From NCBI RefSeq assembly GCF_023509035.1, contig NZ_CP075583.1:3658001-3722000 (forward strand): a DNA stretch of 64,000 bases. The letters are read 5' to 3'. This document shows positions 8,400-57,779 of this stretch, piece by piece. A program made the position numbers and the translations under genes. The notes below the pieces were generated by a model. It worked only from the letters and a program-made list of their open reading frames with translations, had not been told where the DNA came from and searched no databases. This DNA is from Janthinobacterium lividum. Its GTDB lineage: Bacteria > Pseudomonadota > Gammaproteobacteria > Burkholderiales > Burkholderiaceae_D. How positions within the stretch are numbered: the first letter of the stretch is position 1; each line of letters starts with the position of its first letter.

Positions 8400-8442
8400 G
8401 CGAAATATCAGGTTGCGGTGAGTCGGGTGCCGATGCACGCGG

Positions 8443-9151
8443 TTACTTGCCTGGCAGGGCTTCCACGTGCGGCGTTGGCGTACCCTGCCATGTTAACCGA
8501 TAGGCCGTGCCTTTGCGAACATTGCCCACGAGGGCGGGGCGGAAGCAGGCCAGGCTTGGTGCCGCTGGCGTGACGGACGCTGGGGAAGATCACGCCCATG
8601 GAACCGGCTTCGAGGAGGATGGCGGCCAGGTCTTGCGAGGCGATGTAGCTGGCCGGATCGAGGCAGGCGATGTAGCGCTCCTGGCCGCGCAAGTCGTGGA
8701 AGCTGGCGGAAAAATCGGCCAGCAGCGACTGGTAGTTGACGCTGTCGTCGAAATAATCGATTTCCTGGTATTCCACGGTTTTGTGGAAAATGATCTCGGC
8801 CAGCGCCGTTTTCATGTCGAAGGCGCAATACCAGGCCCCCCGTTCGCCATCGTTGAAACGCGCCCCTTCCGGGCGGGCGTACGTATAGGCGGCATTGATG
8901 ATACGAAAGTGCGGCACGCCAAAAACCAGCTCGTCCACGCCAATTCCTGGCGCGCCGCCGTACTCGGCCACCAGGCGCGCATTGGTCGCGTTATCGAGCT
9001 CGAACAGCTCGCGCAGGTGGTCGTCGTCCTCGGCCAGGGGCGCCAGCACGGAGTCTTCCATGTCGGCGAAGCGCGAAGGAATCAGGCGGCAGGTATCGAT
9101 CTGGCGCAAGGCGGCCAGCGGCGGCAGGGGGAAATTTGGGGCGGCAGGCAC
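8443..9151 (-). pseudogene. RES-domain toxin of a RES/DUF2384 toxin-antitoxin pair, frameshifted near its C-terminus
   Basis: RES toxins are NAD-degrading enzymes of the MbcT type. From GTG 9151, which lies 2 bases after the antitoxin stop, the frame carries the RES features ARFNDGERGAWYCAFD, ALAEIIFH and VIFPSVRHASGT. After that Thr the frame reads nonsense and runs on to 8408. Dropping one base of the TT at 8556-8557 instead gives SLACFRPALVGNVRKGTAYR and an end at 8443, the expected RES C-terminus and a 235-residue product. The defect is therefore one inserted base. It may be a sequencing error or a genuine loss of toxin activity with the antitoxin retained. Confidence 0.8.
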
Positions 9152-9153
9152 GC

Positions 9154-9591
9154 TTACAGCCCTCCGCGGCGCGCGTCGAGCAGCTTGCGCACGGTCTGCA
9201 TCGCCAGCAAGCCGCCGGCCAGCATCTGCGACAGGGGCGTGCGTCCGCCGAAGATGGGGTTTTTGTTGGGCAAACTCACCCATTCGTCCGCCAGCTTGTC
9301 GCCATACAGGATGTGCAAGGCCTTGTAGATGCCCAGCAAATAGGAAATGCGCGTGATGCGGTCCACTTCCAGCACGCGGTCCGGGTGCTTCTTCCACTCG
9401 TAGTAGGCGCTGCTGGACAGGCCGCCCAGCAATTCGCGCGCATCGTCGTCGCGCAGTTTCCAGGCGGCGGCCAGCTTGAAAAACCCTTTCAATGCCGCCT
9501 GCGACAATCGCTCGCGCTCGGCTTTCGCGTTCAAGTCGACGAGGATAGCCGGCTCGAAGCGGCTCTTGGGGTAGGCATAGGCGAGATTCAT
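9154..9591 (-). CDS. DUF2384 (Xre/MbcA/ParS-type) antitoxin
   Basis: A 145-residue cytoplasmic protein preceded by a strong AAGGA site. Its C-terminal half matches the MbcA/ParS toxin-binding domain: a helical region with ITRISYLLGIYKALHILYG, then WVSLPNKNPIFGGRTPLSQM (the NPxFxGxxPL motif) and a last helix. The N-terminal half (SQAALKGFFKLAAAWKLRDDDARELLGG, then SSSAYYEWKKHP) looks like the Xre-like DNA-binding part. Partner of the RES toxin, which starts 2 bases after this stop, so translation is probably coupled. Such antitoxins usually autorepress the operon. Confidence 0.88.
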   Translation of the reverse strand: MNLAYAYPKSRFEPAILVDLNAKAERERLSQAALKGFFKLAAAWKLRDDDARELLGGLSSSAYYEWKKHPDRVLEVDRITRISYLLGIYKALHILYGDKLADEWVSLPNKNPIFGGRTPLSQMLAGGLLAMQTVRKLLDARRGGL

Positions 9592-9726: not shown

Positions 9727-12345
9727 TTATCTGGCCGTGACAGTCACCGGCACGGTCAGCTGCGCCGTCAGGCCGTTATTGTCCAGCGCCACGACCTTCA
9801 GCGTATAGCTGCCCGTCACCGGCAGGGGCCAGCGGGCCGTGATCGTCATGCCGTTCATGGAAAACTGCATGCCCAGGGGCGCGCCGGTAATCGAGATCCA
9901 TAGCGCGTTCGCGCCCGGTGCCGTCAGCACGATGCTGCCGCTCATGGTCTTGCCGGCCACGCCCATCATGGTGGCGGCGTTGATCGTGGGGCCGGCGGCG
10001 GCGATTTTCACCGTGGCCACGGCCTGGCCGCTCAAGCCCGACCTGGTGTCCCTGGCGATGACCGTCACGCTGTAGCTGCCCAGTACGGGCTTGGCCCAGT
10101 TGACAACGCCGGCGGCATTGATGGTCATGCCGGACGGCGCGCCCGACAGGCTGTAGGTGACGGGGTTGGGCGCCACCGTCGTGGCGGTGAATGACAGGGC
10201 CACGTCCGGCTTGCCGCTGACGCTGGCCACGGTGACCACGGGTGGCAGGGGGGCGGCGATGGCCACTGTGTAGATGCCTTTGCCGCTCAGCTCAGTCTTG
10301 CTGTCCTTGGCTGTCACGGTGACGGCATAGGTGCCGGCCACGGGTGCAGCCCAGCTCACCAGTCCGGCGCTGCTGATGGTCATGCCGGCCGGCGCGCCGC
10401 TCAGCGTATAGCTGACAGGATTGGCGGAGCTAACGCTGACGTTGAATGCCAGCGCCGTGCCAACCTTGCCCGTGATGGCGCCGGTGCCGACGACGGGCGG
10501 CGCGACGGGGGTAATGACGATGGCGTACACGCCCTGGCCACTGAGGCCGCTGACGCTATCCTTGGCCACCATGGTCACGGCATACGTGCCCGCGATGGGG
10601 GCTGCCCAGCTGACCACGCCAGTGGCGGCGATGCTCATGCCGGCCGGCGCGCCCAGCATGGTGTAGCTGAGGGGATTGGCTGCGCTGGCCGCTACGGTGA
10701 ACGACAGTGCCTTGCCGGCCGCGCCGCTGATGCTGGCCGGCGCCACCACGGGGGCGGCCGGTGCGATCTGCGTGCCCGACAGGCTGGCCAGCAGGCTTTT
10801 CACGTTAGGCGTGCCCAGGCCGCCCAGCGGGTCGTAGCCGACCCTGGCCGTGCACACGCTGCAAGTGCCGTTGCTGCCGCGCGTGATGTCGGCAAAGCTG
10901 CTGGCAAAGGTGCCCGGCACGGTGGCGATCTGGCCGTACAGCATGCTGTGCGGCAAGCCGAGCGCTGTCTTGGCTTGCAGCGCGCGGCTGGCGTTGGCGA
11001 TGGCGACCAGGCCGGCCCATTGCGGCGTGGACAGGCTGGTGCCGCCGATGCTGAGCCAGCTGGCGGTGCTGCTGCCGGGAGTCATCACGGCCGTGTACTG
11101 GCCCGTGGCGGGGTCGGCATTGAAGGCCACGTCGGCCACATTGCGCCGCAGCAGGTTGGTCAGGCCGGGGACGCTGGCCGTCTGGTAGGTGGGCAGCGCC
11201 GTATAGGCGCTGATGCCGCCGCCCGTGCCGGACCAGGCCGTTTCGCTGCGCATGCCGCTGCCGCTGTAGCTGAGCGTGGTACCGCCCACGGCCAGCACGT
11301 TGGACGACACGGAGGGCCAGGACACGCCGCTGCCCGAATCGCCCGTGGCGGCCAGGTAGCTCATGTTCTTGCCCGTGAAGGCGCTGTCGACGGAAGCTGT
11401 CCAGTTGCCTTCGGCAGCGCCAAAGCTCATCGAGACGACGCCAGGCCCCATCAGGTTGGCCAGGCGCACGGCGCCCAGCAGGCTGTTGATGGAAGCGTCG
11501 GGCGCCTCGATCAGCACGATGCGCGCCAGCGGTGCCGTGGCATGCGCCCATTGCACGTCGAGCGCGATTTCCATGGCCCAGCCCGAATTATAGGCTGGCG
11601 CGGTGGCCGTCATGGTGCTCGATGGCGTGTTGTACACGACTGAAAATTCACAGCCGCTGGCCGGGGCGGGCGGCAGTGGCAGGCTGGCATTGGTGGCGAT
11701 GGCTTTGGTGGTGCAGCCGGGCAAGCCGAACTTCTGGTTGAAGATGGCCAGTTCGGCCGCCGCGTTCGGATTGTGCATGGCGTCGACGATATAGATCGTC
11801 TGTCCTGCGCCCAGCTGTGCCGCCTGGGCTGGCGTCAGTGCCGTGCCAGCCGCCGGCAGGGCGGGCAGGTCGTAGGCGGCGCGAATTTGCGCGGGCGAGT
11901 AGGTGGCCACGACGCTGCTGCCGGCCATGGGTGCGGCGATGTCGCTCGCGCCGCCGTCCAGCAGCGGCGCGATGTCCTGTGCCGTCTGTTCCACGGCGGC
12001 GATTCTTTGCGCCGTCAGGCGGCGCGTGCTCATTTCCCTCATGGCGCCTGGCACGTTCTGCAAGTGTGGCCGCCAGTGGGCCGAGCCGCTGCTGTTGGCG
12101 CTGTCGCGCCCGTCAGGCGCATCGAGCAGGGCCGGGGCCGCATGAAACATTGGTTGCGCCACCAGCGCGCCGACGGCGGCGGGGATGACGGGTACCTCGA
12201 CACTGAACTGTGTCGCGGCCGTGGCGATGGCGGCAGGCGGCGTCGAGGTCTCCTGGCCGGGGCCGCAAGCACCCAGCAGGAGGGTGGCAGTGGCGCCCAG
12301 CAGCAGGCGCCCGTGACGGGGATGCGGCGGGATGAATCTTTTCAT
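9727..12345 (-). CDS. secreted S53 family (sedolisin) serine peptidase with four C-terminal Ig-like repeats
   Basis: An 872-residue exported endopeptidase. ATG 12345 has a GGAGAG site and opens a lipoprotein-type signal (hydrophobic core ending LLLGACG). The catalytic domain shows the S53 signatures: Glu and Asp in AMEIALDVQW, the oxyanion Asp in ATGDSGSG, the nucleophile in IGGTSLSTPQWAG and the calcium site DITRGSNG..GYDPLGGLGTP. After it come four tandem repeats of about 85 residues (consensus SYTLSGAPAGM, VSWAAPVAGTYAVTV, KDS) resembling He_PIG Ig-like domains, probably for substrate or surface binding. A cyclic di-GMP-I riboswitch precedes it. The longer frame up to 12594 would run through that riboswitch, so I reject that start. 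Confidence 0.88.
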   Translation of the reverse strand: MKRFIPPHPRHGRLLLGATATLLLGACGPGQETSTPPAAIATAATQFSVEVPVIPAAVGALVAQPMFHAAPALLDAPDGRDSANSSGSAHWRPHLQNVPGAMREMSTRRLTAQRIAAVEQTAQDIAPLLDGGASDIAAPMAGSSVVATYSPAQIRAAYDLPALPAAGTALTPAQAAQLGAGQTIYIVDAMHNPNAAAELAIFNQKFGLPGCTTKAIATNASLPLPPAPASGCEFSVVYNTPSSTMTATAPAYNSGWAMEIALDVQWAHATAPLARIVLIEAPDASINSLLGAVRLANLMGPGVVSMSFGAAEGNWTASVDSAFTGKNMSYLAATGDSGSGVSWPSVSSNVLAVGGTTLSYSGSGMRSETAWSGTGGGISAYTALPTYQTASVPGLTNLLRRNVADVAFNADPATGQYTAVMTPGSSTASWLSIGGTSLSTPQWAGLVAIANASRALQAKTALGLPHSMLYGQIATVPGTFASSFADITRGSNGTCSVCTARVGYDPLGGLGTPNVKSLLASLSGTQIAPAAPVVAPASISGAAGKALSFTVAASAANPLSYTMLGAPAGMSIAATGVVSWAAPIAGTYAVTMVAKDSVSGLSGQGVYAIVITPVAPPVVGTGAITGKVGTALAFNVSVSSANPVSYTLSGAPAGMTISSAGLVSWAAPVAGTYAVTVTAKDSKTELSGKGIYTVAIAAPLPPVVTVASVSGKPDVALSFTATTVAPNPVTYSLSGAPSGMTINAAGVVNWAKPVLGSYSVTVIARDTRSGLSGQAVATVKIAAAGPTINAATMMGVAGKTMSGSIVLTAPGANALWISITGAPLGMQFSMNGMTITARWPLPVTGSYTLKVVALDNNGLTAQLTVPVTVTAR

Positions 12346-12429
12346 GGCGAAACTCTCCGAGTTGGGCGAGGGCCACATCTCGACAATGCATCCAGGTCGG
12401 GGGCCGCGCGCTGGCGGTCCTGGTCCTGC

Positions 12430-12516
12430 ACATTGGCAACCCCGCTGCCATGGCGCTTGCGCGCGGTAGGCCGGTGGCTTTGCGTCCCCGCCTTTCGACG
12501 GGTTTGCCCTCAGAAT
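12430..12516 (-). promoter_or_regulatory. cyclic di-GMP-I (GEMM-I) riboswitch
   Basis: Read on the minus strand, the region has the conserved GEMM-I core in order: AGGGCAAACC (12510-12501), a GAAA tetraloop hairpin (GAAA at 12496-12493), GACGCAAAGCC (12486-12476), ACCGGCCTA, and the second hairpin ending GCAGCGGGGTTGCC (12448-12435). This is the aptamer that binds cyclic di-GMP. It ends about 85 bases before the start codon of the S53 peptidase on the same strand. No T-run follows it, so control at the ribosome site is more likely than termination. Whether it switches on or off cannot be read. Confidence 0.92.
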
Positions 12517-12793
12517 TAATCGTGCATCGTTATAAACTTCCTGATGCGTTATCAATTCTAGTGAATTTGACAAATAAGTGTTAACTATTCTCAATCAATA
12601 TTTTTATTCTCACAATAAAATGTGGTAGATTTGTCTATTGATGAGTGGAATCTTGTCAGCTTTATTAAGTCTTAAAAGCAAGGTTATCAGGGGAGTATCG
12701 ATGCGTTACAGTGTTTTTCCACAGCAACGGTGCTTGTCTTTTTGATTTTTAAATGAATTTAACGAATTTATTGAATATGCGGTATTTTCAGGA
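12517..12793. other. AT-rich intergenic region upstream of the riboswitch
   Basis: This stretch is far richer in A and T than the surrounding genes and holds no convincing gene. On the minus strand a TATAAC at 12535-12530 could be the -10 element for the riboswitch transcript, placing its start within a few bases of the aptamer. I found no well-spaced -35. A 14-codon plus-strand frame from ATG 12701 with a GGGGAG upstream is probably chance. Confidence 0.4.
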
Positions 12794-13207
12794 TTAATCC
12801 TCGAATACCATGTCTTGATACGGCGCCGCGCGGCAGGCCGCCAGCCGCTGCGCCAGGCTGCCCGCATGGGCTTCCAGCTGGTGCCCGTCCGGATCGAGAA
12901 AATACAGGGAGTCGCCGGCGCTGCGATTTTGCTGCCATTCCACCACGCCAGCGGCGCGCAGGCGGGCGGCAAAGGCGGCGAAGTCTTCCTGGGAGATGGC
13001 AAAGGCATAGTGCGTGTAGGCAGGTCTGGCCAGTGCAGCCGTGTCTTGCCCGTCCAGCGCCAGGCACAGCCACAAATCCCCGGCCGACAGATACGCGCCC
13101 CTGTCCCAGCGCGCATGCAGGCGCAGGCCCAAGGTGTCGCGGTAAAAAACGACACTGCGCGCCAGGTCGCGCACGGACAGGGTGAGGTGGTTCAGGCCGG
13201 TCAACAT
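12794..13207 (-). CDS. FosA-like fosfomycin glutathione transferase (VOC family)
   Basis: A 137-residue VOC-fold metalloenzyme. The FosA family opens the fosfomycin epoxide with glutathione. It starts [15 protein letters not shown] (ATG 13207). The predicted metal ligands are His7, His66 and Glu112, matching His7, His64 and Glu110 of FosA, and [19 protein letters not shown] matches the K+-loop and C-terminal signature. The position of FosA Lys90, which contacts the drug, is Gln92 here. It lies 48 bases after recJ on the same strand. FosA-like proteins with poor activity are known, so resistance should not be assumed. Confidence 0.82.
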
Positions 13208-54859: not shown

Positions 54860-55016
54860 GTATTTCTCCAACGGTAAGGATAGTGATTGTAACGCAGGCG
54901 CGACAGGCGGGCTGCGGCCCACACACATAATTACGCTGCTGGCTTACCTGCAAACATGACTCTGTGGTAATTTGTGTGTCCTTGAAGAAATACACAGAAA
55001 CGGCAGATGCTGCACC

Positions 55017-57779
55017 ATGTTCTTGCGACAATTTGTAAATAATAATAACGCCGCCGTGGTGGAGATGAGCAGGGCCGATTTTCTCAAGGCCAACCTGCGC
55101 CTGATCCTGGCCTGGCCCCTGCTGGGACTTATCCTGTGCGCCGTGCTGTGGACGGCCACCTTGCTCCAGCTGGAGGCGGAAAAGAAGGTGGCGCAGCAGC
55201 AGGCGCTCGACAGCGTGTCATCGCTGTCGAAAGCGTATGGCCAGTATCTGCTGCGCACCCTGGAGCAGATGGACCAGCTGACCTTGCAGCTCAAGTATGA
55301 GTGGGAAAATTCGCGCGGCCACTTGCGTCTCGACCAATTGAAGACGCAGGGCATGTATGCCTTGCCGCAATTTGCCATCGTTGCCATCCTCGACCGCAAG
55401 GGCCATCCCGTGACGGCCACGGCGCCGCTGCAGCGCCTGCGGGTCAACGAGCGCAGCGATTTCCTGCTGCGCCATTGGCGCAGCAATTCCAGTGCGCTGC
55501 GCATCGCGCTGGGAAGGGCCAATGCGGCCAATGCAGCCAGCGAGGCCACGGCGTCGGGCGCCGATGAAAGCCTCGTGCATTTCACGCGCCGGCTGGAAGA
55601 CGTGGATGGTAATTTTGACGGCGTGCTGCTCATCTCCATCCATTCCAGCTATTTTTCCGAATTCTACAACAGCGTCAGTTTCGGCAAGTTCGGCATGTCG
55701 GCCATGGTGGGCGAGGAGGGCGAGCTGTTCAGCACGCGCCTCGGCTCGCGCGTGCTGCCCGTGCAGAGCGGCCAGGGCACGCCGTTTCTCGATACCAGCT
55801 TCCTGGAATCGGAGAGCGGCGCCATGCATTCGGGCGGCAGGATCGCTTTTTCCGACAAGCAAAGCCGCTATGTGGGCTGGCAGGCCCTGAAAGCCTATCC
55901 GTTTACGGCCGTGGTCGGACTGTCGGATGGCGAAATGCTGCACCCCTACGAGGAAACGCGCACCATTTATATCGGCATCGCCCTGGCCGTCACCGTGCTG
56001 CTGCTGGCCTTTGCCGCCGTCGCCACCGTGCTGTCGTTGCGCCTGGCGTGGCGCCACCACCAGTCCGAAGGCGTGCGCAATGCCTACCGCATGGCTACCG
56101 AAGGCACGAGCGACGGCTTTTACATCATTGCCGCCCTGCGCGGCGAGGATGGCAGCATTCTCGATTTTGAGATCGTCGACTGCAACGAGCCGGGCGCTGG
56201 CTACTTTGGCGTGCGCCGCGAACAGCTGCTGGGCATGCGCTTGCAGTCGCGCGCCCACGAGCCGTATTTCCGCGACCTGATCCATAATTACCGGGCCGCC
56301 ATGGTCTCCGGTTTTTCCGAGGAAGAGATCGAGCTGCCGGAAGGTAACCCCTTCAAGCTGCGCTGGATACGCCGGCGCCTGGTGCGTAGCGGAGACCGTC
56401 TGGCCGTCACCCTGCAAGACATCAGCACGGCCAAGGAGCACGAGCGCGATTTGCGCCGCCTGGCCAATGAAGATGGCTTGACGGGCTTGCCCAACCGCTA
56501 CTGGCTGCAGCAATTCCTGCCCGGCGCCCTGGGGCGCGCCGCCATCGCGCGGCAGATGCTGGCGCTGCTGTTCATCGATCTCGACGGCTTCAAGGATATC
56601 AATGACACGCAGGGCCACGCCGAGGGCGACAAGGTGCTGCGCGCCGCCTCGCTGCGCCTGAAGGCCGTGCTGCGGCCGGGCGACCACGTGGTGCGCCTGG
56701 GCGGCGACGAATTCGTCGTCGTGCTCGACCCCGTGGAGGACGACAGTCGCGCCGAACAGGTGGCGCAGCGCATCGCCATCGCCTTCGACGAACCGTTTTA
56801 CCTGGGCACCGAGCGCCACAAGATGGGCGCCTCGATCGGCATCAGCCTGTATCCGCGCGATGGGGCCGAGACGGAAGTGCTGCTGAAGAACGCCGATATC
56901 GCCATGTACGCCGTGAAGGTGGCGGGCAAAGGTCATCACCGCTTCTTCCAGCCGGAATTGTTCGAAACCATCCGCAACCGCCGCGAACTGGAGCAAAGCC
57001 TGGTGGCGGCGCTGGAGCAGGACCAGTTTCTCGTCGTCTACCAGCCGCGCGTCGACGCCATGAGCGGGCAGCTGTGCAGCATGGAAGCGCTGGTGCGCTG
57101 GCACCATCCGCAGCACGGCATGGTGCCGCCGCTGGAATTCATTCCCGTGGCCGAAAGCAGCGGCCTGATTTCGCAGCTGGGCGAAGTCGTCATCGAGAAG
57201 GTATGCCTGCAGATGGCGCGCTGGCAGGCCAGCGGACTGGAACTGGTACCCGTTTCCATCAACGTCTCGGCGCGCCAGTTCGGCCGTGGCGACGTGCACC
57301 AGGTGCTGGCGTCGGCGCTGACGCGCCACCGCATCGATGCGCGGCTGATCGAGGTGGAAATCACGGAATCGGCCATGATGGATGAACAGAACCGCGCCGT
57401 GGAGCAGTTGTCTGCCATCCGCGCGCTGGGCGTGCGCCTGCTGGTCGACGATTTCGGCACCGGCTATTCCTCGCTGTCGCAGCTGCAGAAGTTCGCCATG
57501 GATGGCTTGAAGATCGACCGCGCCTTCACCATGGAGCTGGGCCGTTCGGAGCAGGGCGAAGTGTTCGTGCGTGCCATCCTGTCGATGGCGCATGCGCTGG
57601 GCATGAGCGTGGTGGCCGAAGGGGTGGAGACGCGCGAGCAGCTTGACATCCTGCGCGCCCTGCAATGCAACGAGGTGCAGGGCTATTTCATCTCGCGCCC
57701 CGTACCCGCCGAACAGATGCTGTCGCTGATGCATCAACGCTTTCTGATACCGCTTCCAGCCCCTGCGTTGACATCGTAG
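55017..57779 (+). CDS. membrane GGDEF-EAL cyclic di-GMP turnover protein with PAS domain
   Basis: A 920-residue protein that may make and break cyclic di-GMP. Layout: N-terminal membrane helix (LILAWPLLGLILCAVLW), a periplasmic Cache-like sensor of about 260 residues, a second helix (IGIALAVTVLLLAFAAVAT), a PAS domain (about 355-470), GGDEF with an intact RLGGDEF near residue 562, and EAL with SMEALVRWHH near 689. Both signature motifs are intact, and the EAL catalytic region carries DDFGTGYSSL. Both activities are therefore possible. It starts after a weak ribosome site at ATG 55017. Confidence 0.93.
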   Translation: MFLRQFVNNNNAAVVEMSRADFLKANLRLILAWPLLGLILCAVLWTATLLQLEAEKKVAQQQALDSVSSLSKAYGQYLLRTLEQMDQLTLQLKYEWENSRGHLRLDQLKTQGMYALPQFAIVAILDRKGHPVTATAPLQRLRVNERSDFLLRHWRSNSSALRIALGRANAANAASEATASGADESLVHFTRRLEDVDGNFDGVLLISIHSSYFSEFYNSVSFGKFGMSAMVGEEGELFSTRLGSRVLPVQSGQGTPFLDTSFLESESGAMHSGGRIAFSDKQSRYVGWQALKAYPFTAVVGLSDGEMLHPYEETRTIYIGIALAVTVLLLAFAAVATVLSLRLAWRHHQSEGVRNAYRMATEGTSDGFYIIAALRGEDGSILDFEIVDCNEPGAGYFGVRREQLLGMRLQSRAHEPYFRDLIHNYRAAMVSGFSEEEIELPEGNPFKLRWIRRRLVRSGDRLAVTLQDISTAKEHERDLRRLANEDGLTGLPNRYWLQQFLPGALGRAAIARQMLALLFIDLDGFKDINDTQGHAEGDKVLRAASLRLKAVLRPGDHVVRLGGDEFVVVLDPVEDDSRAEQVAQRIAIAFDEPFYLGTERHKMGASIGISLYPRDGAETEVLLKNADIAMYAVKVAGKGHHRFFQPELFETIRNRRELEQSLVAALEQDQFLVVYQPRVDAMSGQLCSMEALVRWHHPQHGMVPPLEFIPVAESSGLISQLGEVVIEKVCLQMARWQASGLELVPVSINVSARQFGRGDVHQVLASALTRHRIDARLIEVEITESAMMDEQNRAVEQLSAIRALGVRLLVDDFGTGYSSLSQLQKFAMDGLKIDRAFTMELGRSEQGEVFVRAILSMAHALGMSVVAEGVETREQLDILRALQCNEVQGYFISRPVPAEQMLSLMHQRFLIPLPAPALTS

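Follow-up and report, generated by a model that had tools for sequence, protein, structure and literature searches.

Upstream of a gene for a probable exported S53 peptidase, the Janthinobacterium lividum genome carries a complete c-di-GMP-I (GEMM-I) aptamer, and the leader that contains it most likely acts as a translational OFF switch. The locus lies in a window of 64,000 nucleotides (contig NZ_CP075583.1 of assembly GCF_023509035.1, positions 3,658,001 to 3,722,000), and the pairing of aptamer and peptidase gene is shared by relatives across the genus and the family. We infer the sign of control from covariation among leaders and from computed folding.

When the whole window was searched with cmscan, RF01051 (c-di-GMP-I) was the sole family matched at its gathering threshold. 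The match spans model positions 1-87 of 87 and scores 87.3 bits, where the cut-off is 35. An earlier, sequence-only reading of the window had described a complete GEMM-I aptamer and proposed an Infernal search with RF01051 as a check; the aptamer is indeed there, with a score well over the cut-off. The strand and spacing given in that reading were also right (85 bases to the gene, 86 nt found between the aptamer and the ATG on the same strand), while its coordinates, 12430..12516, were off by 2 nt. No second RF01051 match with E up to 0.001 occurs in the genome of 6.26 Mb. A search of the genome for c-di-GMP-II gave no match, a result of little weight since the search controls were equally silent. 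The GAAA tetraloop and a G at model position 11 are each present in 60/60 leaders, and we take position 11 to be equivalent to the ligand-contacting, specificity-determining G, Vc2 G20. The aptamer of this strain is predicted to bind c-di-GMP.

Table 1. Positions of the S53 peptidase gene, the elements of its leader and two other genes, numbered from the first letter of the window.
Feature	Position	Strand	Basis and remarks
S53 (sedolisin/kumamolisin-type) peptidase, probable lipoprotein, C-terminal Ig-like repeats	9727..12345	minus	872 aa, ATG 12345, stop 9727
Shine-Dalgarno GGAGAG	12353..12358	minus	sequence
Anticore GCCCTC, complement of core, proposed anti-Shine-Dalgarno strand	12368..12373	minus	core:anticore covariation and opening-cost test
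Possible antitail TGCATTG	12384..12390	minus	by eye
Aptamer 3' tail CAATGTGCA	12427..12435	minus	covaries with block 36-67 nt before start codon, controls partly match
c-di-GMP-I (GEMM-I) aptamer	12432..12518	minus	RF01051, 87.3 bits, E 6.7e-16
Aptamer 5' core GAGGGC	12506..12511	minus	holds position we take as equivalent to ligand-contacting G; pairs with anticore by covariation
Possible 5' leader hairpin GCATC...GATGC	12524..12547	minus	directly after promoter; sequence
Probable sigma-70-type promoter (TTAACA, 18 nt, TAGAAT)	12555..12584	minus	pattern scan
RES-domain protein	8408..9397	minus	downstream of S53 gene
PAS-GGDEF-EAL protein	54972..57779		weak Cache match

The peptidase was recognised through its relatives. 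Pfam returned no S53 match for the protein, only Ig-type and related repeat domains, and NCBIfam gave nothing above its cut-offs and no S53. A profile built from 18 relatives matches chains of known structure from kumamolisin, sedolisin and tripeptidyl-peptidase 1 (TPP1), with kumamolisin-As as the best match (E 7.5e-29); a single-sequence search matched TPP1 at 3e-7. The residues E259, D263, D336, S437, D486 and D505 are invariant in 18/18 relatives, and are presumably the Glu/Asp/Asp/Ser catalytic residues of the S53 family together with the calcium-site Asp. The N-terminus reads LLLGAC-G, with the lipobox LGAC and Cys27, and a simple lipobox pattern is found in 20 of the 23 family relatives given. 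This lipobox cysteine makes free secretion less likely, and the protein is probably a peptidase exported as a lipoprotein. The exported sedolisin of the sequence-only reading is borne out in its S53 homology and export signal, and less so in its simple secretion. As for the four Ig-like repeats of that reading, He_PIG matches in 3 stretches account for three, and a fourth is plausible; weaker Ig-type matches lie near the C-terminus. The next feature downstream in Table 1, on the same strand, is the RES-domain protein.

The pairing seen in the window holds across genomes of the genus and the family, in agreement with the link between aptamer and peptidase first proposed for this locus. Among 40 genus genomes, 27 have the aptamer and 22 have a near-full-length S53 (at least 77% identity), which the aptamer precedes in all 22. 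The remaining 18 comprise 13 that have neither aptamer nor near-full-length S53 and 5 with aptamers elsewhere. In one of these five (G021, locus L028) the gene behind the aptamer is a more distant S53 relative (37% identity), and to that extent the pairing reaches beyond close orthologues; in the rest the aptamer precedes other genes. A GTDB scan found the closest loci in Janthinobacterium and the aptamer upstream in 21 of 26 named loci (53-94% identity). Those with the aptamer include Rugamonas, Curvibacter, Undibacterium and MAGs labelled Rhodoferax and Rhodocyclaceae (53-59% identity), and the 5 without it are Duganella.

A sample of 294 genomes gave the same picture for the family. Strong S53 orthologues were defined by a match above 600 bits (n=48), and pairing by an RF01051 match that lies no more than 1500 nt from S53 and on its strand; by coordinates the aptamer is upstream in 40/48. 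In a further genome (G084) the contig ends within the S53 gene, and a different contig has an aptamer before an S53 N-terminus that presumably belongs to the same gene; this brings the count to 41/48. The 7 orthologues without an aptamer (L152-L158) belong to one genus (g40, Duganella), and no RF01051 match was found upstream of any of them even at E 5. By eye, several of these seven have a promoter-like element near the start codon, an arrangement suggestive of a deletion of the switch. The 40 weaker S53 matches listed for the family sample (E up to 1e-20, at most five candidates scored per genome) all lack the aptamer; 15 of them were checked by script and 25 come from genomes without an RF01051 match. 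Outside the family it precedes 3/3 further orthologues above 600 bits, and 2 weaker orthologues have no aptamer within the stretch fetched.

The promoter pattern scan found 1 site against 0.6 expected in shuffles; a promoter-like pair is visible by eye in most genus leaders, L024 being an exception, in a comparison in which 5 of 22 rows were wrongly oriented. The hairpin that may follow the promoter has compensatory-looking changes in some genus relatives, again by eye. The Shine-Dalgarno motif is GAGAG in 20 of the 22 genus leaders and GAGAA in the other 2. A search of 12300-12850 for terminator-like sites was negative, in accord with the observation in the sequence-only reading that the leader has no T-run.

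The main evidence on the mechanism is covariation between two short segments, the 5' core of the aptamer and the anticore near the ribosome site. We collected 56 leaders, which form 25 clusters below 80% identity, with start codons chosen by frame and Shine-Dalgarno sequence; 4 leaders that share no more than 76% identity with the others were added later, giving 29 in all. This core, in most cases GAGGGC, is the complement of a block 20-36 nt ahead of the start codon, and the two covary. In several lineages both segments have changed in step: GAAGGC/GCCUUC in Rugamonas, CAGGGC/GUCCUG in G292 and CCUGGGC/GUCCAGG in G106b, and in each of these three cases the leader's own core ranks first of ten for its own downstream sequence. 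Across the 25 clusters, own cores on their own downstream sequences reach a mean of -11.8 kcal/mol versus -10.8 kcal/mol for swapped cores (p about 1e-4), and the best duplexes lie 26-32 nt before the start in 22/25 clusters versus 308/472 for swapped cores. The own core is within the best three of ten in 21 clusters and is not favoured in the other 4 (G143, G297, L043 and L045). Tested singly against shuffled downstream sequences, 14/25 clusters pass 0.05; the leader of the window itself gives 0.03.

Over the 29 leaders the core:anticore signal has a z of -4.3, and of -5.6 in a fixed window from -36 to -20. The controls are flat for the reversed core (z +1.1, and 0.1 in the fixed window), for the core against the Shine-Dalgarno/start window (0.0) and for the 5' flank (0.4); the P3 segment of the aptamer leans the same way as the core (z -1.5, p 0.07). 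In three of the 4 leaders added later the duplex lies 29-30 nt before the start, and in L164 the best duplex is elsewhere. The Curvibacter leaders have a correctly placed complementary block with the own core at rank 7 of 10, and we did not count them as support. The same core test gave no signal (z +1.5) on 39 of 59 leaders of genes other than S53, a set with starts guessed by longest ORF from which 20 were excluded for implausible gaps. This null result suggests that the core:anticore platform, as seen by sequence comparison, looks specific to S53 leaders.

The 3' tail of the aptamer is a further candidate for pairing. Against a block 36-67 nt before the start it gives a z of -6.4 over the 29 leaders, with controls that are not clean (reversed tail -3.0, neighbouring segment -3.9), and in the leader of the window a different tail pairing outscored the antitail picked by eye. 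For these reasons we grade the tail:antitail pairing as probable only. Two other ideas were discarded. An extension of P1 by a helix between 5' flank and tail looks good in Janthinobacterium and shows no covariation (z +1.0 to +1.6, 25 clusters). An ON switch acting through an antitail hairpin, our first idea, was abandoned once the core:anticore signal emerged.

To judge the direction of control, we computed how costly the ribosome site is to open. This site is masked by the anticore strand in local folds. With the anticore blocked, the mean cost of opening the region from -15 to +3 falls from 11.4 to 7.5 kcal/mol over the 29 leaders; with other segments blocked it averages 10.8 kcal/mol, and the distances of these segments to the ribosome site were left unmatched, a possible bias towards the anticore in such tests. 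Blocking the anticore lowers the cost by more than 0.5 kcal/mol in 25/29 leaders and raises it by that much in 0/29. Among the 22 genus leaders the mean goes from 8.2 to 7.2 kcal/mol, with a fall above 0.5 in 14 and a rise in 3, and in the leader of the window the effect is weak (8.5 to 7.5 kcal/mol). Covariation between anticore and Shine-Dalgarno is unclear in the narrow comparison (z -1.6) and reaches -5.0 over a wider region, against -2.1 for the reversed control.

Global folding of the free and bound states is nearly uninformative. It covered those leaders whose aptamer is 87 nt long (45 of the 56, from 17 of the 25 clusters), and J_L024 gave a 60 kcal/mol artefact. The mean accessibility of the Shine-Dalgarno sequence is 0.30 in free folding versus 0.27 with the aptamer forced (17 clusters, Wilcoxon p 0.03); the leader of the window gives 0.46 versus 0.43, with a core:anticore probability of 0.03. 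Given the weak effect in this leader and the flat global folding, the OFF reading draws on comparison among leaders rather than on a strong fold of a single RNA.

We propose that at low c-di-GMP the core GAGGGC would pair with the GCCCUC block, which lies about 23-28 nt ahead of the start codon; the 3' tail may engage a second block immediately upstream of that one. Such pairing would keep the anti-Shine-Dalgarno strand away from the ribosome site, and the protease would be made. With c-di-GMP bound, the core would be locked within the aptamer and the GCCCUC block freed to fold onto the Shine-Dalgarno/start region, so that the exported lipoprotein protease would not be made. The link to the motile/sessile switch suggested in the sequence-only reading would then take the form of synthesis in the motile, low-c-di-GMP state.

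The same pairing could also serve a translational ON switch, in which the core:anticore structure beside the ribosome site itself blocks initiation until c-di-GMP releases it. The pairing is supported and its effect on translation is a predicted one; global folding barely separates the two states, and in 3 of the 22 genus leaders blocking the anticore makes opening costlier. Across the wider set, however, with the anticore occupied the Shine-Dalgarno/start region becomes easier to open by more than 0.5 kcal/mol in 25/29 leaders and harder by that margin in 0/29, and we regard an ON switch as rather unlikely. That control is exerted mainly by transcription termination, intrinsic or Rho-dependent, with leader structures affecting translation indirectly, appears improbable. 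Two Undibacterium-type leaders (L040:2726-2770 and L055:2846-2890) do have, by eye, a hairpin and T-run directly after the aptamer, which possibly add transcription termination there, but the leader of the window has no terminator-like site and the conserved block adjoins the Shine-Dalgarno sequence. The translational control favoured by the sequence-only reading is the better reading in view of the empty terminator search, the core:anticore covariation and the shift in opening cost.

We hold it highly improbable that the aptamer is a relic, or that it recognises some ligand other than c-di-GMP, for example 3',3'-cGAMP. The GEMM-I variants that bind cGAMP carry an A at the specificity position, which is G in every one of the 60 leaders; the RF01051 score is high, and the aptamer-gene pairing spans genera. 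These points stand against the precedent of rare GEMM-I variants that bind c-AMP-GMP, as given in the accessible part of PMC7266159. A translational OFF switch responding to c-di-GMP is the reading that we prefer.

A membrane GGDEF-EAL enzyme in the window had been put forward as a possible feeder of the signal. The gene is real and encodes a PAS-GGDEF-EAL protein, but the genome has 60 GGDEF matches, a few of which are fragments of a single protein. At this density, about 0.6 per 64 kb, finding such a gene in the window accords with chance, and a special role is not supported.

Aptamers of this class also precede other genes. The family sample contains 144 RF01051 matches, 143 of them over the cut-off, and 41 precede S53. 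From the other 103 we took 60 (L167-L226), the higher-scoring ones and hence a score-biased set, and a downstream frame was obtained for 59, with starts guessed. Of these frames 17 match subtilases (S8), 8 match Reprolysin_5 (weakly, best E 1.2e-05) and 8 match lytic transglycosylase (SLT), and an HExxH motif occurs in 9/59. Ten further loci, 6 from the genus search and 4 from the family search, lead to S8 peptidases (2), M12-like proteins (2, weak), SLT (3), chemotaxis receptors (2) and a protein of no family (1). L022, L023, L025, L027, L029, L086, L093, L094 and L096 are non-S53 aptamer loci of this kind. Tentatively, the c-di-GMP-I riboswitch of Burkholderiaceae might have come mainly to control exported peptidases together with enzymes that lyse the cell wall (S53, S8, M12-like and lytic transglycosylases), a surface-remodelling set turned off at high c-di-GMP; in this genome it would be reduced to a single protease, with the ligand-binding strand itself as the anti-sequester.

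With one c-di-GMP-I aptamer, one protease and 60 GGDEF matches in the genome, the strain offers a simple test case, and the aptamer-free Duganella orthologues provide a natural comparison. The results suggest direct RNA control of surface proteolysis by c-di-GMP in a large bacterial group, parallel to the control of ZmpI in Clostridioides difficile. Among the matches listed in a search of open-licence papers, none appears to deal with a pairing of c-di-GMP riboswitch and S53. The co-mention of riboswitch and sedolisin in PMC9144310 and that of Janthinobacterium, riboswitch and c-di-GMP in PMC12456836 are, in the portions of these papers available, irrelevant to it.

Both the switch class and the OFF logic are already known, from Vc2 and from C. 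difficile ZmpI. The title of a 2018 paper by Inuzuka reportedly states that the Vc2 riboswitch masks the ribosome-binding site. Excerpts of PMC9262584 and of PMC7371385 describe Vc2, from Vibrio cholerae tfoY, as a translational OFF switch. The S53 leader has an aptamer of the same class, and the OFF logic fits our reading of it; Vc2 controls TfoY, whereas the S53 leader precedes an exported peptidase. The nearer parallel in function is ZmpI (CD2830), a secreted protease that cleaves surface proteins and that, according to the available part of PMC6200980, is under negative control by the class I riboswitch Cdi-1-12. As far as that part of the source goes, both systems place a class I c-di-GMP riboswitch before a protease gene, but ZmpI is a zinc metalloprotease of a Gram-positive host with known substrates, and the enzyme here belongs to S53. 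With kumamolisin, sedolisin and TPP1 the S53 protein of the window shares homology and catalytic residues; it differs from them in its lipobox and its C-terminal Ig-like repeats, and is a predicted peptidase.
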